Shown here: piece by piece, positions 1-6,658 of the stretch
Layout: the number at the start of each line of letters is the position of its first letter
Position numbering within the stretch: position 1 is the stretch's first letter
NCBI GenBank assembly: GCA_002435835.1
Contig: DIVM01000190.1
Span: 1 to 6,658, forward strand
Origin: Firmicutes bacterium UBA6132
Lineage (GTDB): Bacteria > Bacillota_A > Clostridia > Tissierellales > Sedimentibacteraceae
Length of the DNA stretch: 6,658 nt
Direction: 5' to 3'
Notes under the pieces: model-generated
What the model was told of the DNA's origin: nothing
Database searches by the model: none
What the model saw: the letters and a program-made list of their open reading frames with translations, nothing else
Program-made: the position numbers and the translations under genes

Positions 1-49
1 GTAATTTTGCTGGGTTTTCTTATAAGACTTTAATGATAATATGTTCGCT

Positions 50-69
50 ATAACATCTTCATAACATCT
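50..69. repeat. 9-bp direct repeat, 11-bp period
   Basis: ATAACATCT occurs at 50-58 and again at 61-69, separated by two bases, so the copies lie about one helical turn apart. The second copy runs into the left arm of the inverted repeat at 67-99. Function is unknown. It could be a tandem binding site for the local regulator or for another factor, or chance in AT-rich DNA. Confidence 0.4.
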
Positions 70-99
70 ACATATTAAATTTATATAATAATATGTAGA
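67..99. repeat. 11-bp perfect inverted repeat
   Basis: TCTACATATTA (67-77) and TAATATGTAGA (89-99) are exact reverse complements around an 11-nt spacer. There is no GC-rich stem and no following T-run, so it is a poor intrinsic terminator. It is better read as a possible protein-binding dyad or a structure at the end of an upstream transcript. It lies about 175 bp upstream of the -24 box, within the usual range for sigma-54 enhancer sites. Confidence 0.45.
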
Positions 100-139
100 G
101 TCAGTCATATTCAGATGAAATTAGAATAATTGTAGATAT

Positions 140-174
140 TTGAACAGTATGGTGGTGAAAATTGAACAATATTG
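140..174 (+). promoter_or_regulatory. Candidate upstream activator sites (two TTGAACARTATKG repeats)
   Basis: TTGAACAGTATGG (140-152) and TTGAACAATATTG (162-174) match at 11 of 13 positions and start 22 bp apart, about two helical turns, so both would face the same side of the DNA. The second copy contains the perfect palindrome ACAATATTGT (166-175). They lie about 100-130 bp upstream of the -24 GG, a typical enhancer distance for NtrC-family activators. A related TGAACAG lies at 5725-5731 upstream of the second sigma-54 promoter. Assigning them to the regulator encoded at 2790-4139 is inference. Confidence 0.35.
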
Positions 175-271
175 TAGCCATTATTTAAAGAGCAACATGG
201 TTTTTTCTCATAAGATATTAACTTTTTATATAATTTTACAAATAAAATAAAAGTATAAAAAATTATTTACA

Positions 272-288
272 TTGGCATGAATATTGCT
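272..288 (+). promoter_or_regulatory. Sigma-54 (-24/-12) promoter of the five-gene operon
   Basis: TTGGCATGAATATTGCT matches the sigma-54 consensus TGGCAC-N5-TTGCW. The invariant GG (274-275) and GC (286-287) are separated by exactly 10 bases. The predicted transcription start is near 299, giving a leader of about 60 nt before the ATG at 360. A near-identical promoter precedes the second zinc-ribbon unit, and a sigma-54 activator with a GAFTGA loop is encoded by this same operon, so positive autoregulation is likely. I found no convincing -35/-10 promoter nearby to supply basal expression. Confidence 0.87.
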
Positions 289-291
289 GAT

Positions 292-323
292 AAAATATTA
301 AAAACATAAGTTTTTAATATTTT
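292..323. promoter_or_regulatory. 14-bp perfect dyad over the predicted transcription start
   Basis: AAAATATTAAAAAC (292-305) and GTTTTTAATATTTT (310-323) are exact reverse complements with a 4-nt spacer, ATAA. The predicted +1 (near 299) falls inside the left arm, so a transcript would carry only part of the hairpin. A DNA operator is therefore at least as likely as an RNA structure. The second sigma-54 promoter of the window has no such element. Its role (repressor site, leader stability or chance) is not settled by sequence. Confidence 0.5.
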
Positions 324-359
324 TAAGCTTAATACTAATTAATATCAAGGAGCGATTTT

Positions 360-716
360 ATGAATTTTAAGAAGTCAATATTGTATTTATTATTAAGTAT
401 ATTTGCATTAATTTTTATTTACAATTACATGCTCCCATATTTTGTTACACAAAGTTACATTGCCAATAATATGGGGATGGGCATGGGCATGCATATGCGG
501 GAAAGTATAAATAATAATGTACAATATAATTATAATAATTTAGTCAACATAATTGTTTTTATTGTGGTAATTTTAGCAAGTTTTTTAATATTAGATAAAA
601 TTATATTTGCTTCTAAAAGTAAAAAGTGTAATAAGTGTGGTCTAACTATAGAAAACAATCTATGGAAAGTGTGTCCAAGATGCGGTAACCACTTACATCA
701 ACGTAAGGAGGAATAG
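360..716 (+). CDS. Small two-TM membrane protein with Met-rich loop and C-terminal zinc ribbon
   Basis: This 118-residue protein has a basic N-terminus (MNFKK), a first membrane helix at about 6-28, an extracytoplasmic loop with alternating Met and Gly (M38, M40, M42, M44, M46 with H45), and a second helix at about 61-83. A basic patch (KSKK) and a zinc ribbon follow, with C90-x2-C93 and C105-x2-C108 around the WKVCPRCG core. The charges place both ends in the cytoplasm. The Met/His run resembles soft-metal (Cu(I)/Ag(I)) ligand clusters, but metal binding is inference. It is first in an operon with two other zinc-ribbon proteins, a kinase and a sigma-54 activator. The start is set by AAGGAG seven bases upstream. 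I know no characterised function. The closest relative in the window is the protein at 5864-6280, with the same topology. Confidence 0.9.
   Translation: MNFKKSILYLLLSIFALIFIYNYMLPYFVTQSYIANNMGMGMGMHMRESINNNVQYNYNNLVNIIVFIVVILASFLILDKIIFASKSKKCNKCGLTIENNLWKVCPRCGNHLHQRKEE
705..712 (+). promoter_or_regulatory. Ribosome binding site deciding a TTG start
   Basis: AAGGAGGA lies seven bases before the TTG at 720 and inside the end of the preceding gene. Together with the matching N-terminus of the paralogue at 1114 (ATG, same MTLL start), it supports initiation at TTG. Confidence 0.85.
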
Positions 717-719
717 TTA

Positions 720-1076
720 TTGACGCTCTTACTTTTAATTTTAATAGCTATAATAATATATTATAGTACAATATTTTCTGTTAATAGCAACAAAAAATGT
801 CCAAATTGCCAACATTCAGTGGAATCTGAATTTAATGTATGTCCAATATGTAAAGAGACATTAAAAAGAAGGTGTAATAAATGCAGTGAATTTGTTGATG
901 TAACATGGAAGTATTGCCCGTATTGTAAAACTTCTCTAAGAGAAAGTAATTTTGAAAAGTTAGAACAATTACGATATTTACTATATTGTGCTATTGACAT
1001 AAATAATAAAGAAAAAATTCTTAAGATTAGCCAAGAGATGGATAAAGAAATTATAAAAGAGATAAATAATGAGTAA
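720..1076 (+). CDS. Membrane-anchored double zinc-ribbon protein with helical tail (TTG start)
   Basis: This 118-residue protein has one N-terminal hydrophobic anchor (about 2-20), followed by lysines that favour a cytoplasmic C-terminus. Two zinc ribbons follow: C27/C30 with C41/C44, and C52/C55 with C66/C69, the second with the WKYCPYC core. Residues 76-118 form a charged, probably helical tail missing from the neighbouring paralogue. Residues 1-75 are identical to the 1114-1359 protein at 60 of 75 positions, so the two arose by tandem duplication. Only three bases separate it from the preceding stop, which implies translational coupling. Double zinc ribbons of this kind usually mediate protein or nucleic-acid contacts. 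A role as an adaptor at the membrane is inference, and the partner is unknown. Confidence 0.9.
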   Translation: MTLLLLILIAIIIYYSTIFSVNSNKKCPNCQHSVESEFNVCPICKETLKRRCNKCSEFVDVTWKYCPYCKTSLRESNFEKLEQLRYLLYCAIDINNKEKILKISQEMDKEIIKEINNE

Positions 1077-1113
1077 TGGTAGCAAAATTTACTACTGAAA
1101 GGAGGAGTTAGTT

Positions 1114-1359
1114 ATGACGCTTTTAATTTTGATATTAATAGCCATATTAATTTATTATAAAACAATACTTTCAATTGACAGCAACAAAAAATGCCCAAAT
1201 TGCCAAAATTCAGTGGAACCTGATTTCAATGTATGCCCAGTATGCAAAGAAACATTAAAAAGAAAGTGTAATAATTGCGGTGAATCTGTCGATGTAACAT
1301 GGAAGTACTGTCCTTATTGTGAAACTTCTCTTAGAGAAGGTGATAAGCGTGAAACATAA
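1114..1359 (+). CDS. Membrane-anchored double zinc-ribbon protein, short paralogue
   Basis: This 81-residue protein has an N-terminal membrane anchor (about 2-20) and two zinc ribbons with cysteines at the same positions as the upstream paralogue: 27, 30, 41, 44, 52, 55, 66 and 69. It ends about five residues after the point where the two sequences diverge and lacks the helical tail. The ribosome binding site AAAGGAGGA (1098-1106) lies seven bases before the ATG. Its 3' end overlaps the histidine kinase start at 1349 by 11 bases, so the two are probably translationally coupled. That overlap may mean the tail was lost when the copy came to abut the kinase gene, or that the longer paralogue gained one. 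Function is unknown; a membrane-tethered adaptor or regulator for the adjacent kinase is an inference from position only. Confidence 0.88.
   Translation: MTLLILILIAILIYYKTILSIDSNKKCPNCQNSVEPDFNVCPVCKETLKRKCNNCGESVDVTWKYCPYCETSLREGDKRET
1335..1343 (+). promoter_or_regulatory. Ribosome binding site deciding the kinase start
   Basis: AGAAGGTGA lies five bases before the GTG at 1349. The in-frame GTGs at 1319 and 1340 have no comparable site, and the one at 1340 lies inside this sequence, so 1349 is preferred. Confidence 0.7.
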
Positions 1360-2752
1360 AAAAGGTTTTAAGATTTTAAATATAGCACTTATTTTATTAA
1401 TCTCAATACTTCATTTTATGCCTAAATCTTCAGATTCTTCTCTACATCAATTCTACAGACTTCTTTTTTTTATTCCAATCATATTGTCTTCTTTTATATT
1501 TGGATTTAAAGGAGGGACAATTACAGCACTGCTAATTAGCGTAATATACTCTCCGCAAAAGTTACTTTCAATTGGTTTTGGTATTGAGGCAATTAATGAG
1601 CTTTTAGATATACTCTTGTTTTTTGTAATAGGAATAATTACAGGTATATTGGTTGAAAAGAAAAACATAGCAATAATTGCTATAGATAATCAGTTAAAAA
1701 AGTATGTAATCTTGGAGAATTACACCAATTCTATTTTTGAAAGTATAAGAAATGGCATAATCTCTATTAATAATGATTTTTTTATTACTTCAATAAATTC
1801 TGGAGCCAAGAATATTTTCGGAATAACTGGTGATTTCATTGGTAGAAATTTCATAGAAAACTTCTCATGTTTTAATGAAATTAATAATATAATAACTGAC
1901 GCTATGAGAAATGGTAATGCTGTTGAAAATATAGAAAAAAGTATTATAAAGGAAAATATTGTTGTTAATATAAAAGTTCACGTATACCCACTTAGCTTAG
2001 ACAATAAGAATAAAGGATTAGTTATCATAGTAGAGGATATTACTGAAACAAAAAAAATAATGGATCAAATGCAGAGAAATGAAAAATTAGCATCCATTGG
2101 TCAATTATCAACAGGCATAGCTCATGAGATAAGAAATCCACTTGCTATAATTAAAATGATTGAACAAACCATGAAAACCGAATTAAAAGATAACAAAGAT
2201 GCTGTTTTAGAGCTAAATGTTATTGATGAAGAAGTAGAGAGAGCGAATAACGTAATAAAATCGCTTATGGAATTTGGAAAACCTAATAAGAATGAAAAGA
2301 ATATTTCTTCTTTAAATGATATTATTAACGAAATATTAATTATTGTAAATAAGTATGTTTCACAACATAATGTAAATGTAAAGTTTAATGAGAGTAAAAT
2401 TCCAAGAAGTGAATTTGATAAAGAACAATTAAAGCAGGTTTTTGTAAATCTCATATTTAATGCTGTTGACGCAATGCCTGAAGGTGGAGATATAATTATT
2501 TCTACTGAAAGCATTCACAATAAATGGATAAAGGTTAATTTTCAAGATACTGGTATAGGAATTGAAGAGAATGACCTTAAGAATATATTTAATCCTTTTT
2601 TTACGACAAAAGAGGAAGGAACAGGATTAGGGCTTTCTATTGTTCATAGGATAATAGAGGATCATCGAGGGATTATAAAGGCAACAAGCGTAGTTGGTAA
2701 AGGTACTCAATTTGAAATACTATTCCCTATAGATGAAAATAAATGTAACTAA
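1349..2752 (+). CDS. Membrane PAS sensor histidine kinase, NtrB-like
   Basis: The 467-residue kinase (GTG start) has four probable membrane helices at about 8-24, 37-53, 56-68 and 84-103, joined by very short loops. A PAS-like domain follows (about 122-232), ending in the usual IVEDITE. The HisKA domain carries the phosphoacceptor H259 in STGIAHEIRNPL. The ATPase domain has the N box N367-x3-N371, the G1 box DTGIGI (400-405), FFTTK (417-421) and the G2 box GTGLGLS (424-430). All catalytic motifs are intact. The second-helix region (HQFYRLLFFIPIILSSFIFG) resembles the membrane sensor module of kinases paired with NtrC-type regulators. With no sizeable outer domain, the signal is probably read in the membrane or by the PAS domain. 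It should phosphorylate the regulator encoded 37 bases downstream. The signal is unknown. Confidence 0.93.
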   Translation: MKHKKGFKILNIALILLISILHFMPKSSDSSLHQFYRLLFFIPIILSSFIFGFKGGTITALLISVIYSPQKLLSIGFGIEAINELLDILLFFVIGIITGILVEKKNIAIIAIDNQLKKYVILENYTNSIFESIRNGIISINNDFFITSINSGAKNIFGITGDFIGRNFIENFSCFNEINNIITDAMRNGNAVENIEKSIIKENIVVNIKVHVYPLSLDNKNKGLVIIVEDITETKKIMDQMQRNEKLASIGQLSTGIAHEIRNPLAIIKMIEQTMKTELKDNKDAVLELNVIDEEVERANNVIKSLMEFGKPNKNEKNISSLNDIINEILIIVNKYVSQHNVNVKFNESKIPRSEFDKEQLKQVFVNLIFNAVDAMPEGGDIIISTESIHNKWIKVNFQDTGIGIEENDLKNIFNPFFTTKEEGTGLGLSIVHRIIEDHRGIIKATSVVGKGTQFEILFPIDENKCN

Positions 2753-2776
2753 AAGTGATATAGTAAATGATTATAT

Positions 2777-2782
2777 AGGAGG
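2777..2782 (+). promoter_or_regulatory. Ribosome binding site deciding the regulator start
   Basis: AGGAGG lies seven bases before the ATG at 2790. An in-frame ATG at 2733 would add 19 residues that fit no receiver domain and has no such site, while translation from 2790 begins exactly at the canonical MKVLIADDE. Confidence 0.88.
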
Positions 2783-2789
2783 CAGAGGG

Positions 2790-4139
2790 ATGAAGGTATT
2801 AATAGCAGATGATGAAAAAAATATGCGATGGATCCTTGAAAAAAACTTAAAGTCGGAAGGCTTTTCTATAATATGTGCGGAAAATGGCGAAGAAGCATTT
2901 AATTTGTTTTTGGATGAAAATCCAGATATGGTAATATTAGATTATAAAATGCCAAAACTTGACGGTATGGAAGTTTTAAAAAGGATAAAGAAAATAAATA
3001 ATTCTATTCCAGTGATTATGATAACAGCACATGGAAGTACAGATGCAGCAGTAGAAGCTATGAAGCTTGGTGCAGTGGATTATGTATCTAAGCCTTTTGA
3101 TATTACAGAGTTAAAGTTAACAATTTTTAAAGCTTTAAATATTGATAAATTAAATAAGGAAATACAATATTTAAAGGAAACGTCCACTGAAAATTTTAAT
3201 AATAAAATAATTGGACATAGCAAAAAAATGATTGAAATATTTGAAATTATGAATAAGATTGCGGATACAAATGCTACGATTTTAATTACTGGTGAAAGTG
3301 GAACAGGAAAAGAAGGTATTGCATCAACAATTCATAGTAAAAGCAGTAGAAAGGATAAACCCTATATTACAGTTAATTGTGGTGCAATACCTGATACTCT
3401 AATAGAAAGTGAATTGTTTGGTTATGAAAAGGGTGCTTTTACGGGTGCTAATAGTAGAAAGATAGGTAGGTTTGATAGGGCAGAAGGTGGAACTTTGTTT
3501 CTGGATGAAATAGGCGAACTAAGCTTATCATTACAAGTCAAAATTCTGAGGGTTCTTCAGGAAAAAGAATTTGAAAGAATTGGCGGAACCGAAGTAATAA
3601 AGTCTGATGTAAGAATAATAGCAGCGACAAACCGAGATATTGAAGCTATGGCTAAAAATGGTGAATTTAGAGAAGATCTCTTGTATAGACTTAAGGTAAT
3701 ACCTATAAACATCCCTCCTTTGAGAGAGAGAAAAGATGATATTAAACCTTTAGTAGAATTTTTTATAGATAAATTTAGCAAGGAAACTAATAAAGGTAAA
3801 ATAATAATCGAAAGAGATACGTTGGACTTATTAGAAGACTATGATTATCCTGGAAACATAAGAGAGCTTGAAAATCTAATAGAGAGATTAGTTATACTTT
3901 CAGGTGATGGACTTATAAAAGCGTCAATGCTTCCAAAAGAAATAGTTAAAGGTGCTTATGCTTCTAAAAATAACATATTTACATTACCAGATGAAGGTCT
4001 TAACCTTGAGGAACTTGAAATAAGTCTTGTAAGACAGGCATTAGAAAAATCAAAAGGAAATCAGACCCAAGCTGCTAAGCTTCTTGGAATGTCAAGGCAT
4101 GCTCTTATATATAGAATGGATAAAAATAATTTAAGATAG
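2790..4139 (+). CDS. Sigma-54-dependent response regulator, NtrC family
   Basis: This 449-residue protein has three domains. The receiver (1-120) has the acidic D7/D8, phosphoacceptor D51, T79 and K101. The AAA+ sigma-54 interaction domain (about 140-370) has Walker A GESGTGKE (168-175), the GAFTGA loop (215-220) that contacts sigma-54, Walker B GGTLFLDE (233-240), and arginine-finger region residues near R294 and R300. The C-terminal Fis-type helix-turn-helix (about 423-446) contains [16 protein letters not shown]. Everything needed to activate sigma-54 polymerase is present. It is the partner of the kinase just upstream. Both sigma-54 promoters in the window (272-288 and 5812-5828) are natural targets, which would make it an activator of its own operon and of the second zinc-ribbon unit. 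The target assignment is inference; the family assignment is firm. Confidence 0.96.
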
Positions 4140-4163
4140 TTTCAAAAAATACAGGTATGAAGT

Positions 4164-4183
4164 GAGGCTACTGAAAAAGTGAC
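4164..4183. other. Possible insertion-sequence end relic
   Basis: GAGGCTACTGAAAAAGTGAC reads, on the minus strand, towards a ...TTTTTCAGTAGCCTC end. This loosely resembles the terminal inverted repeats of many insertion sequences. It lies downstream of the transposase-like fragment at 4256-4357 on the same strand, but no partner repeat is visible in the window. The call is weak and rests on resemblance. Confidence 0.2.
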
Positions 4184-4202
4184 ACTACATCATTTTAACA
4201 AT

Positions 4203-4265
4203 AAAAAATTGGTGTACTAACGTTAAGAATAGTATCATTTCTTGATTAGTACACTTTAATTTTTT
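4203..4265. terminator. Bidirectional intrinsic terminator between convergent genes
   Basis: GTGTACTAA (4212-4220) and TTAGTACAC (4246-4254) form a perfect 9-bp stem. Outside it AAAAAATT (4203-4210) pairs with AATTTTTT (4258-4265), and a smaller AAGAA/TTCTT stem (4225-4229 with 4239-4243) closes the loop. Both strands therefore show a hairpin followed by a U-run. It lies 63 bases after the regulator's stop and about 90 bases after the P450's stop, so it can end both transcripts. Confidence 0.75.
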
Positions 4266-4357
4266 ACAGGGCAATATTCACAACCTTCACATTCGTAAGC
4301 GGTATTATAATATAATATTAGATGTAATTTGGTTAAAAAAATTTTATTACATGTCAT
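4256..4357 (-). pseudogene. Cysteine-cluster fragment, possible transposase C-terminal relic
   Basis: Directly after the P450 stop, and in the same frame, the minus strand stays open for 33 codons from ATG (4357) to TAA. Its last part reads NTAYECEGCEYCPVKN, with C23, C26 and C29. The Y-x-C-x2-C-x2-CP pattern recalls the cysteine cluster near the C-terminus of IS1182-type transposases, where it continues with further residues and another Cys; here it stops abruptly. The first half (MTCNKIFLTKLHLILYY) resembles nothing I recognise. There is no ribosome binding site, so it is more likely a degenerate remnant than a working gene. The assignment is from memory of the family and is weak. Confidence 0.3.
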
Positions 4358-5614
4358 TCATTTTGGGTTTATATTATTAATTAAAAATCCACTTTCAGGT
4401 AATGTAGGCATTTTTAATAAGTCATAACTTAAGTCTTGATTAGGAACTGTATACTCTATTTTATTAACAAGAAAATCTAAGCTTGCTTTCATTATTTCAA
4501 CAGTTATTCCTTCGCCTGGGCAACGATGGCCCATAGAAGAATCACCTCCACCTTGCGGTATAAAATTATATAGGTTATGTTTTTTATCCTTAAAACGCTC
4601 TGGTATGAAATAAAATGGTTTATCCCAAATTTTTGAATCGTGATTAGTACCGTATATATCAAGTAATACAGTCATTCCTTCTTTAAATTCACATTGATTC
4701 CAATTGAAGTTTTTTCGAACTAATGCACCAAGCATTGGTGCAAACGGATAATAACGACGCACTTCTTGTGTAAACATATCAAAGTAATTACTGTTTCCTG
4801 ATATGAGCCTATCCTTGCATTCTGAATTGTGATGCAATGCTAAAGCTGAAAATGTTATAAATGTAGAAATAGCAACAATTGGTCTTAACACGTTTATAAG
4901 TTCAATAGCAGCAATTTCATTACTAAACATTTCACCATCTAAATCTTTATAAAAAGCTATAGAATAAAGTATTGTACCCTCTTCCGAATTTTGTTTCCCA
5001 GATCTTACATCTTTTATTAATTTAATTAACCATTCTTCAGTTCTATCCCTTGCTATTCTACCTTTCCAGTGACGCGGTCCCACTGCTCCAAAAGCATCAA
5101 TCATTGAACTAAAATCATCAGCTCTGTTTTTAACATCAGCTTCTTCTATTGGAACTCTGGTCCATTGGCATGCTGAACGACATAAAACTTCTTTAGCTTC
5201 ATTAAAAAGGATAACTCTTTCCGCATTTACCCATGTATCTATACATGTTTCCCAATTTTTTTTTATAATCTTAGATAACTGCATTTCATTGTCTGGAGTC
5301 ATCATAGAAATAAAAAGGTGCTTCCTATGATTATGTTCTTCTCCATCCATTGTTTGTATTGCGTTAACGCCAAACAATGTTTTTTGTATTCTTTTTGGCA
5401 CAGCTCCATTTCTTTTAAATAAATCTGGATCATAAAACAACTTCGTAGCTTCCTCTCCGCTCATGCAAATTGTTTTTTTACCCAATAAACGCGTTTCAAA
5501 TACATTAGTTTCATATTTATCCATCCTATTTTTGATAAACATATAACCTTCTTGCATCAAATTTTTAGTGCTGTCGAGGCATTTATCATATGTAACAGGT
5601 TCATTACTGCTCAT
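4358..5614 (-). CDS. CYP152-family cytochrome P450 (fatty-acid peroxygenase/hydroxylase)
   Basis: The 418-residue protein matches the roughly 417 residues usual for CYP152. The heme-ligand loop PQGGGDSSMGHRCPGE puts the proximal thiolate at C365. The R244-P245 pair in INVLRPIVA replaces the usual acid-alcohol pair and binds the fatty-acid carboxylate; these match R242/P243 and C363 of Bacillus P450 BSbeta at a constant offset of two. The ExxR motif is E284-R287 (EVRRYYPF). Q87 corresponds to BSbeta Gln85, where the decarboxylase OleT has His, so H2O2-driven alpha/beta-hydroxylation of long-chain fatty acids is predicted rather than alkene formation. It has no signal peptide and is probably cytosolic. 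The ATG at 5614 follows AAAGGAGGA (minus strand, 5629-5621). It is convergent with the regulator operon and divergent from the second zinc-ribbon unit. In an anaerobe it may consume peroxide or modify lipids. Confidence 0.94.
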   Translation of the reverse strand: MSSNEPVTYDKCLDSTKNLMQEGYMFIKNRMDKYETNVFETRLLGKKTICMSGEEATKLFYDPDLFKRNGAVPKRIQKTLFGVNAIQTMDGEEHNHRKHLFISMMTPDNEMQLSKIIKKNWETCIDTWVNAERVILFNEAKEVLCRSACQWTRVPIEEADVKNRADDFSSMIDAFGAVGPRHWKGRIARDRTEEWLIKLIKDVRSGKQNSEEGTILYSIAFYKDLDGEMFSNEIAAIELINVLRPIVAISTFITFSALALHHNSECKDRLISGNSNYFDMFTQEVRRYYPFAPMLGALVRKNFNWNQCEFKEGMTVLLDIYGTNHDSKIWDKPFYFIPERFKDKKHNLYNFIPQGGGDSSMGHRCPGEGITVEIMKASLDFLVNKIEYTVPNQDLSYDLLKMPTLPESGFLINNINPK

Positions 5615-5715
5615 AAAATTTCCTCCTTTCTTAAACTATATTTTCCATATTAACTGAAAAAATTCTTTTTAATAAAGTTATTATTTGCCTCTTGTTGAAA
5701 ATTCTACACGGCGAT

Positions 5716-5741
5716 GTAAGATACTGAACAGAAGTAAGATA
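5716..5741. promoter_or_regulatory. Candidate activator site upstream of the second sigma-54 promoter
   Basis: GTAAGATA occurs at 5716-5723 and 5734-5741, 18 bp apart, flanking TGAACAG (5725-5731). TGAACA is also the core of both repeats at 140-174 upstream of the first promoter. The distance to the -24 GG at 5814 is about 75-100 bp, suitable for an enhancer. Whether it is a true regulator site is inference from this partial match. Confidence 0.28.
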
Positions 5742-5811
5742 GAAATTTATAAAACTTATCCATAATAGTCTCAAAATAATGAAAAATCATATTTAAAATA
5801 AAAATAAAAAC

Positions 5812-5828
5812 TTGGCATGATATTTGCT
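5812..5828 (+). promoter_or_regulatory. Sigma-54 (-24/-12) promoter of the second zinc-ribbon unit
   Basis: TTGGCATGATATTTGCT has GG at 5814-5815 and GC at 5826-5827 with the required 10-base gap. It is identical to the promoter at 272-288 at 14 of 17 positions, including both conserved blocks. Transcription should begin near 5839, giving a leader of about 25 nt before the ATG at 5864. The shared promoter type ties the two zinc-ribbon units into one regulon. Confidence 0.88.
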
Positions 5829-5863
5829 ATATATAAGTAAATAAAAATAAAGGAGGTGAGATA

Positions 5864-6280
5864 ATGAAAAATTCTATGTTAAAAATAATCGTAGTAATTT
5901 CTTTATCAATTATAGCATTGTGGTTACTATTCACTATTCTGTTTCCTATGGGGTTCGGAATGACTATGAATTACTCAATACCAACACATATGGGTAACGG
6001 GTTTAATTACAGCTATGGATTTAATAACTATGGTGGATTTGCAACATTGCTATTGGTATCTTTGATAAAAGTATTTACAATAGCATTATTTGTTACATTA
6101 CTGTTTGGAATTTTCATGTATGTAAAAAATAATGTATTTAGTAAAGAAGACATTGATTCAATTAAAAAAGCTTTTACTGGCAAACAATTAAAAACAGATA
6201 AATTTTGCTCAGAGTGCGGTAAAACTATAAATGATGAATGGAAAGTATGCCCTCATTGTGGCAAAGAAGTAGACAAGTAG
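5864..6280 (+). CDS. Two-TM membrane protein with Met/Gly/Tyr-rich loop and zinc ribbon
   Basis: This 138-residue protein has the same plan as the one at 360-716. A basic N-terminus leads to helix 1 (about 6-28), then an extracytoplasmic loop rich in Met, Gly, Asn and Tyr (29-58, starting FPMGFGMTMNYS). Helix 2 (about 60-86) has K69 inside it. A short amphipathic stretch (SKEDIDSIKKAF) precedes the cytoplasmic zinc ribbon C115/C118...C129/C132 with the WKVCPHCG core. The ribosome binding site AAGGAGGTGA (5850-5859) is a perfect anti-SD match. From K69 onward it aligns without gaps with the next gene at a constant offset of 51 residues. Directly after its TAG stop, the same frame continues with a Met-rich tail to 6349. 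The function is unknown; control by the local sigma-54 regulator is likely. Confidence 0.92.
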   Translation: MKNSMLKIIVVISLSIIALWLLFTILFPMGFGMTMNYSIPTHMGNGFNYSYGFNNYGGFATLLLVSLIKVFTIALFVTLLFGIFMYVKNNVFSKEDIDSIKKAFTGKQLKTDKFCSECGKTINDEWKVCPHCGKEVDK

Positions 6281-6292
6281 ATAAGGCCCGGA

Positions 6293-6349
6293 ATGCACAT
6301 GATAATGGACGATGGAAACATGGGTGGTACGATGAAAGGTATGAGATAA
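6293..6349 (+). other. Met-rich 18-codon reading frame, in frame with the preceding gene
   Basis: ATG at 6293 to TAA at 6347-6349 encodes MHMIMDDGNMGGTMKGMR, with six Met in 18 residues. It lies in the same frame as the preceding zinc-ribbon gene, only 12 bases after its TAG. It could be a small peptide started from the weak AAGG at 6284-6286, a decayed C-terminal tail cut off by the TAG, or a readthrough extension. The GMHM in this frame also occurs in the loop of the protein at 360-716. Eighteen codons alone cannot show that it is translated. Confidence 0.3.
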
Positions 6350-6412
6350 AATATACTTATTCATAAAATATTTTAAATAATTAAATTAAATCTAATATAA
6401 TGGAGGTTAAAA

Positions 6413-6658
6413 ATGGTAGCAGGTTTTAGTTATTCAATCTTAATTATTTTAACGTTTTTGATTAAATTTTTATTCGTTATATTCATTGTTGGACTAATAG
6501 GTGGATTATTAGTAGCAGCAAAGAATTATATTTTAACAGCTGAAGATATACAGAATTTTAAATCAACATTTAAAAGTGAAATAAAAGCAACAAGCAATAT
6601 TTGCAGCGTATGTGGAAAAGAAATTAATCCTGAATGGAAAGCTTGCCCTTATTGCGGA
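6413..6658 (+). CDS. Single-TM membrane zinc-ribbon protein, cut by the window end
   Basis: The first 82 residues are visible and the gene runs off the end. One long hydrophobic segment (about 8-36) contains K18, followed by K37-N38, an amphipathic stretch (TAEDIQNFKSTFKSEIK) and a zinc ribbon C64/C67...C78/C81 with the WKACPYCG core. It aligns without gaps with residues 52-133 of the preceding protein, including the intramembrane Lys. It is therefore a paralogue that lacks the first helix and Met-rich loop. GGAGG (6402-6406) precedes the ATG by six bases. No promoter is visible in the gap from 6350, so it probably shares the sigma-54 transcript from 5812. If the family pattern holds, only a few residues are missing. 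Confidence 0.88.
   Translation, partial: MVAGFSYSILIILTFLIKFLFVIFIVGLIGGLLVAAKNYILTAEDIQNFKSTFKSEIKATSNICSVCGKEINPEWKACPYCG

Follow-up and report, generated by a model that had tools for sequence, protein, structure and literature searches.

A conserved kinase-regulator system with small membrane zinc-ribbon proteins in Clostridia: a candidate sigma-54 circuit for soft-metal stress

Introduction

CusRS is a two-component response with methionine-rich envelope proteins, and CusR-type regulators belong to the OmpR family and use sigma-70. In the ZraPSR system, a kinase and a sigma-54-dependent regulator of the NtrC type control their own genes together with that of a small metal-binding envelope protein; its regulon is very small, and ZraP is named as a feedback repressor in the title of a reference quoted in the same article (PMC7657598). 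The sigma-54 regulons of Clostridiales were analysed by Nie et al. 2019, in a survey that includes Geosporobacter ferrireducens and reports TTGGCAT-type promoters, 44 regulators with receiver domains and, for many activator groups, TGT-N10-12-ACA activator sites; fermentation and amino-acid use are its themes (PMC6615313). According to a survey from 2011, sigma-54 is absent from Actinobacteria (PMC3162934). The present study concerns a 6,658-nucleotide stretch of DNA from Firmicutes bacterium UBA6132 (contig DIVM01000190.1, positions 1 to 6,658), hereafter the window, which encodes a membrane histidine kinase, an NtrC-type regulator and five small membrane zinc-ribbon proteins behind two predicted sigma-54 promoters.

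Our comparison reveals that this ribbon-kinase-regulator system is real and conserved among relatives. It is best explained, in our judgment with reasonable confidence, as a self-contained sigma-54 metal-stress circuit with membrane zinc-ribbon proteins. Apparently the system is undescribed. An earlier reading of the DNA from its letters alone (the sequence-only reading) named no characterised system of such composition, and a search of the openly licensed literature combining sigma-54 with copper, with zinc ribbon or with Coriobacteriia returned nothing on it. A conserved sigma-54 circuit for apparent soft-metal stress, with unusual small membrane partners, would exist in both Firmicutes and Actinobacteria.

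Results

The window contains two rightward units with a leftward gene for a CYP152 peroxygenase between them. Its features are the following.

131 to 168, plus strand: predicted tandem upstream activator sequence (UAS) of promoter 1, TGT-N10-ACA-N6-TGT-N10-ACA, 11 of 12 core bases
272 to 288, plus strand: sigma-54 promoter 1, TTGGCATGAATATTGCT, a perfect pattern match
360 to 716, plus strand: ZR-A, two predicted transmembrane (TM) helices with a Met/His-rich loop (MGMGMGMH) between them and a C-terminal zinc ribbon
720 to 1076, plus strand: DZR-B, one TM helix and a double zinc ribbon, with a C-terminal tail (SQEMD) weakly like Spo0E
1114 to 1359, plus strand: DZR-C, one TM helix and a double zinc ribbon, a duplicate of DZR-B minus the tail
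1349 to 2752, plus strand: membrane histidine kinase with PAS, HisKA and HATPase domains and a TM region that weakly resembles DUF4118/MASE1
2790 to 4139, plus strand: NtrC/AtoC-type response regulator with GAFTGA and a Fis-type helix-turn-helix
4358 to 5614, minus strand: CYP152 fatty-acid peroxygenase (CypC, a cytochrome P450), NF053744, 661 bits against a cutoff of 600
5693 to 5730, plus strand: predicted tandem UAS of promoter 2, 12 of 12 core bases
5812 to 5828, plus strand: sigma-54 promoter 2, TTGGCATGATATTTGCT, a perfect pattern match
5864 to 6280, plus strand: ZR-D, two TM helices, a Met/Asn/Tyr-rich loop and a C-terminal zinc ribbon
6281 to 6349, plus strand: Met/His-rich frame, PGMHMIMDDGNMGGTMKGMR, with no start codon of its own
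6413 to 6658, plus strand: ZR-E, two TM helices and one zinc ribbon, open at the window end

Unit 1 runs from its UAS and promoter through ZR-A, DZR-B, DZR-C and the kinase to the regulator, and unit 2 from its UAS and promoter through ZR-D and the Met/His-rich frame to ZR-E. Domain and TM predictions confirmed the five small membrane zinc-ribbon proteins in two units that the sequence-only reading had described, and domain matches did the same for the membrane kinase and GAFTGA-bearing regulator of unit 1. The tandem UAS at each promoter, the CYP152 gene, the Met/His-rich frame and the Spo0E-like tail of DZR-B are additions to that reading.

When the window was scanned with the promoter pattern TTGGCATG-N4-TTGCT, the two near-identical sites at 272-288 and 5812-5828, both perfect, were the only matches even with up to two mismatches allowed. 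At two mismatches 0.16 matches are expected by chance, and 2 of 200 shuffled sequences reached two. The tandem UAS precedes the sigma-54 site by about 104 bp at promoter 1 and by about 82 bp at promoter 2; at one mismatch 0.02 such sites are expected by chance, and two occurred in none of 200 shuffles. The -24/-12 elements, an AAA+ activator with its GAFTGA loop and nearby upstream activator sites are all present, and both units are predicted to be sigma-54-dependent, with the regulator predicted to bind the tandem TGT-N10-ACA sites at both promoters. Since these sites precede both promoters and the kinase and regulator genes lie inside unit 1, the most natural interpretation is that the circuit probably regulates itself, and unit 2 would come under the control of the unit 1 regulator. 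The self-amplification proposed earlier gains support as an inference from the UAS before both promoters, that of the regulator's own operon included.

To place the system among relatives, genome contigs were searched with the regulator, and the best 80 of 83 relatives' loci were kept (L numbers denote loci, and G numbers genomes, of relatives). They comprise 26 Firmicutes, 50 actinobacterial and 4 other loci. Titles of metagenome-assembled genomes (MAGs) may be wrong; L007, titled Calditrichales, is counted as Firmicutes, where it groups on the tree. In the interval from 2.6 kb upstream to 3 kb downstream of the regulator start, a membrane zinc-ribbon frame was found at 57 of the 80 loci (14/26 Firmicutes, 43/50 actinobacterial, 0/4 other), and the same scan found none in 400 kb of control DNA (20 stretches of 20 kb from G001, G004, G012, G014 and G021). 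At L018 a ribbon missed by the scan pattern was seen by eye, and the seven actinobacterial misses include L070 and L073, which end inside the regulator gene, and L075, which ends about 350 bases after it. Where a double ribbon is present in Firmicutes, it lies directly before the kinase; the ribbon gene of Coriobacteriia follows the regulator. On a tree of 45 rows, made up of all 26 Firmicutes loci, 15 from the 50 actinobacterial ones, 2 from the 4 others, a single paralogue and the window itself, the window regulator pairs with that of a Herbinix MAG (100/98) within a clade of 10, all of them ribbon-bearing.

Sigma-54 sites also precede the unit-1-type operon in several relatives. In eight genomes of the clade (about 40 Mb), the 38-bp pattern TGT-N10-ACA-N6-TGT-N10-ACA matched 16 times, against once for the reversed pattern. 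Twelve of the 16 matches lie, as judged by position, at gene clusters of the system; a sigma-54 site follows within 250 bp downstream in 10 of these, at 387 bp in one, and is absent in one. A looser UAS scan was noisier, with about three chance matches expected in the Firmicutes set (mononucleotide shuffles). The sequence-only reading had asked for a comparison of this kind, and it supports the co-occurrence, in related genomes, of the kinase-regulator pair with membrane ribbon genes and with sigma-54 promoters. Homologous regulators that mostly lack ribbon neighbours, which would have spoken against that reading, are not what the 80 loci contain overall.

The kinase probably starts at GTG 1349, overlapping the stop of the preceding gene. 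Its membrane region is small, with a DUF4118/MASE1 likeness below cutoffs, and is accompanied by the PAS, HisKA and HATPase domains; no outer domain was seen. The His residues of an HY...HxFYR motif are kept in most of the 14 aligned kinases, not in L008 and only partly in L007 and others. The regulator, which begins at ATG 2790, combines a receiver domain with Sigma54_activat and HTH_8 domains and carries the GAFTGA loop.

Among the small proteins, ZR-A was compared over eight rows (the window and seven loci from six genomes), which are 33-50% identical to the window protein. MGMH is as conserved as the ribbon cysteines; both it and the four Cys are invariant in 8/8 rows. The MGMH loop is presumably extracytoplasmic and would bind soft metal. 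The ribbon of ZR-D (CxxC...WKxCPxC) is invariant in 13/13 rows. Structure models of ZR-A (helix, loop, helix and short strands) and ZR-D have low mean values of the predicted local distance difference test (pLDDT), 63 and 62, respectively. Directly after ZR-D, seven related loci carry a one-TM, Met-rich membrane gene (up to 28% Met), and the window frame 6281-6349 is possibly a remnant of it. DZR-B matches DZR PF12773 with 39.8 bits and is 74% identical to DZR-C. Its Spo0E-like tail scored 19 bits on the fragment (cutoff 23) and was found in 0/18 other aligned rows; the sole other match of such length, P0008, is 99% identical and represents the window's own protein or a near copy. A role for the tail as a regulator phosphatase was discarded on account of the sub-cutoff score and its absence from the 18 rows. 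In Anaerosolibacter (L128 6093-6302), a separate Spo0E-like gene, above cutoff, stands behind a UAS and sigma-54 site of the same type.

Copper-handling genes are linked to the system in relatives. The only PF07732 multicopper oxidase of G001, G005 and G021 lies within about 7 kb of a system regulator, as do both long PF07732 copies of G003, and one of two in G006 lies about 12 kb away. An FtrD-like gene occurs within about 8 kb of a regulator in G001, G003, G004, G006 and G021 (G003 and G006 carry further copies elsewhere); the distance is 18 kb in G005, the gene of G022 is unplaced, and G002 gave no match. The P-type ATPases that neighbour L004, L009 and L012 score above the cutoffs of both the Cu and the Cd family, and higher for Cu than for Cd. 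HMA motifs accompany 43/50 actinobacterial and 5/26 Firmicutes loci, CsoR-family genes 44/50 and 0/26, and CcdA-type motifs 33/50 and 1/26, with none of the three in control DNA. In L126-L130, Met-rich membrane proteins form clusters with genes for multicopper oxidase and for FtrD-like, beta-propeller and cytochrome b-like proteins, and L127 has a separate BaeS/CopS-like kinase (13088-14482) in its cluster.

The sequence-only reading had taken the ribbon proteins as the main output of an unspecified membrane response. They are probably not the whole output, as unit 2 of the relatives adds a Met-rich membrane protein among copper genes. Because of this Met-rich gene and its copper neighbours, a metal response fits better than an unspecified one. 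From these neighbourhoods and the MGMH loop, the signal is likely Cu(I)/Ag(I) or a soft metal of similar character; that it is a soft metal, with copper the first candidate, we consider distinctly probable.

In the actinobacterial branch, 18 Coriobacteriia genomes were searched for sigma-54 activators (E 1e-25): exactly one was found in 15 and two in 3, and the single activator of the 15 is the orthologue of the regulator. The whole regulon should therefore be readable from promoters there. The protein cluster containing rpoN, as identified by Pfam in one member, was found at 39 actinobacterial loci (e.g., L042 3072-4466) and at a single Firmicutes locus; in 8 of 11 gene maps it stands immediately ahead of the kinase. 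In 15 genomes the promoter pattern gave 30 sites, against 20 for the reversed control; since this is weak alone, claims for Coriobacteriia rest on what follows the sites. Eight of the 30 stand shortly before a ribbon gene and 13 before a conserved C-rich RNA of about 105 nt, which was first seen in L097, L098, L101, L105, L108, L111, L112, L114, L120, L121, L122 and L125. Pattern sites were also seen shortly before small, apparently exported Cys/Met-rich proteins in L096 and L113 (PVCSMAMC, PVCAMPGC). In L117 and L124, likewise from Coriobacteriia, one lies 150-190 bp before a gene that resembles glutamyl-tRNA reductase (hemA).

A covariance model of the C-rich RNA, built from 11 of these 13 sequences, found one or two copies in each of the 18 regulator-bearing genomes, 33 in total. 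Thirty copies were fetched (L152-L181, near 1500-1610 in each), and 27 have a GCGACC core; the 3 without the exact core were left unscored. In 27/27 scored copies a promoter scoring 11-13 of 13 lies 35-38 nt before the core, whereas the mean for random 60-mers is 7.3, and 7 of 500 attain a score of 10. Sixteen of the 27 are outside the training set of the model, one of them being a site already picked up by the promoter pattern. Among 119 genomes of the class, the RNA was found in 52: 50 have RNA and rpoN, 2 RNA alone, 6 rpoN alone and 61 neither (Fisher p 3e-24, a value that ignores kinship in a set that includes many of the 18 genomes). The RNA is predicted to fold into two hairpins with C-rich loops; 10 of 25 pairs have two-sided changes, and the covariation term is small (-0.14). 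Rfam gave only sub-cutoff matches (6C, ar14, CcsR1). Identity with 6C RNA (RF01066) was considered and rejected, as one locus scored 39 bits against a cutoff of 47 and a later Rfam scan gave no 6C match. The RNA was not found in the window or in 20 other Firmicutes stretches. The sigma-54 regulon of Coriobacteriia appears to include a widespread uncharacterised RNA; that its loops act as an anti-Shine-Dalgarno sequence is our conjecture.

The CYP152 gene and promoter 2 share the same intergenic region. The gene was considered as a regulon member and set aside, because its own strand has no sigma-54 pattern site (up to two mismatches) and no member of the neighbour clusters of the 80 loci matched it; it is probably a bystander. 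The plasmid collection contained no near match to the window, and the closest proteins in the search had no functional names, except for a generic 'RPABC4' label on two.

Discussion

We propose that the membrane kinase would phosphorylate the NtrC-type regulator, which would then bind the tandem TGT-N10-ACA sites about 80-105 bp upstream of the two sigma-54 promoters. It would switch on its own operon (ZR-A, DZR-B, DZR-C, kinase and regulator) and a second one comprising ZR-D, the Met-rich protein, apparently a remnant here, and ZR-E. The small proteins would be seated in the membrane with the Met/His loop outside and the zinc ribbon inside. Their outer loops may bind Cu(I)/Ag(I) or a comparable soft metal, and the proteins could supply the outer Met/His loop and inner ribbon that the kinase itself is missing. 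The ribbon ends would either report to the kinase, making the small proteins receptors that feed it, or damp it, making them metal-binding products that shut it off, a feedback of the kind said of ZraP in ZraSR.

Several observations weigh against this proposal. The scan found no ribbon gene at 12 of the 26 Firmicutes regulator loci or at any of the 4 loci of other groups. Across the full tree, 10 changes are required for the ribbon label, a number as low in 11 of 500 shuffles, so that ribbons were gained or lost repeatedly outside the clade of 10. G002 and G022 have no match to the UAS pattern. As regards the metal, no metal-transport gene lies in the window itself, and the copper linkage seen in relatives has its exceptions: the only multicopper oxidase of G004 is far off, G022 has none, those of G002 are on contigs without the regulator, and the ATPase neighbouring L002 is of the Cd/Zn type and below the Cu cutoff. 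The ribbon proteins of Coriobacteriia have no obvious Met loops. Their CsoR keeps both Cys, and in the rows shown the aligned Cu-ligand His is replaced by Ser or Ala; most of these rows have a His one residue earlier, and the Cys-His-Cys copper ligands were not recovered.

The CsoR-family gene, present beside 44 of the 50 actinobacterial loci without the Cu-ligand His at its usual place, makes a thiol or persulfide signal possible in Coriobacteriia; in lacking this residue it presumably resembles the persulfide sensors of the family (CstR). Together with the CcdA-type motif beside 33 of the 50, it speaks for a circuit that senses thiol, persulfide or envelope redox stress, with the ribbons as thiol switches and the copper genes merely adjoining. 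ZraSR, too, has been proposed as an envelope-stress system that is merely activated by zinc (PMC7657598). However, the invariant MGMH and neighbouring proteins that are about one-quarter Met fit soft-metal binding better, and multicopper oxidases and Cu-type ATPases adjoin several of the Firmicutes systems, so that we regard redox sensing as a serious but unlikely explanation. The maps of L126-L130, where the operons are surrounded by genes for multicopper oxidases, for FtrD-like and cytochrome b-like proteins and for numerous Met-rich membrane proteins, would also suit small proteins that serve not detoxification but the assembly of, or electron transfer to, extracytoplasmic copper or heme enzymes, for instance in metal respiration; the machinery proposed includes cytochrome b561 and a polyferredoxin, the latter as a reading of the sequence only. 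None of these enzyme genes is in the window, though, and G022 has the ribbon-kinase-regulator core without any PF07732 match, which leaves this account improbable. Finally, zinc-ribbon and AtoC-type families are both common, and an AtoC-like two-component system might stand beside unrelated zinc-ribbon genes by chance. With the adjacency kept across two phyla, absent from the control DNA and accompanied by common activator sites and promoters, such a coincidence is hardly credible.

The soft-metal circuit can be set in a wider frame, which we offer tentatively. The window may belong to the Firmicutes side of a portable sigma-54 module of old origin, with small Met/His-loop and zinc-ribbon proteins as metal receptors. 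The Coriobacteriia branch would carry its own sigma-54, with this module usually its only job, to drive the membrane ribbon gene as well as a novel C-rich family of small RNAs with anti-Shine-Dalgarno-like loops, thereby coupling envelope metal or thiol stress to translation.

How does the system relate to those already described? AtoSC provides the best-scoring NCBIfam models for both the kinase (PRK11360, 305 bits) and the regulator (PRK11361, 511 bits). Both scores are, however, below the curated cutoffs (646 and 714, respectively), and the window has no acetoacetate genes. With CusRS/CopRS the system shares a two-component arrangement and Met-rich proteins, whereas the window regulator is of the sigma-54 type. 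The TGT/ACA activator sites and TTGGCAT-type promoters are of the kind described for the clostridial regulons of Nie et al. 2019; no group among the 39 in Table 1 of that survey names zinc-ribbon, Met-rich or copper targets, although a group whose targets are given as 'hyp' or 'memP' of unknown function, such as XhpR, might yet correspond to this system (PMC6615313). Membership of ZraPSR was rejected, as the ZraS and ZraR models score below their curated cutoffs (kinase 210 bits, cutoff 479; regulator 382 bits, cutoff 760) and no ZraP-type periplasmic domain was found among the eight window proteins scanned. ZraPSR is nevertheless the nearest known kind, and the present system would work alike: a kinase and an NtrC-type sigma-54 regulator that control their own genes, together with small metal-binding envelope proteins (PMC7657598). 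What distinguishes it is the set of five membrane zinc-ribbon proteins, some with Met/His loops, and the copper-type neighbourhood of its relatives.

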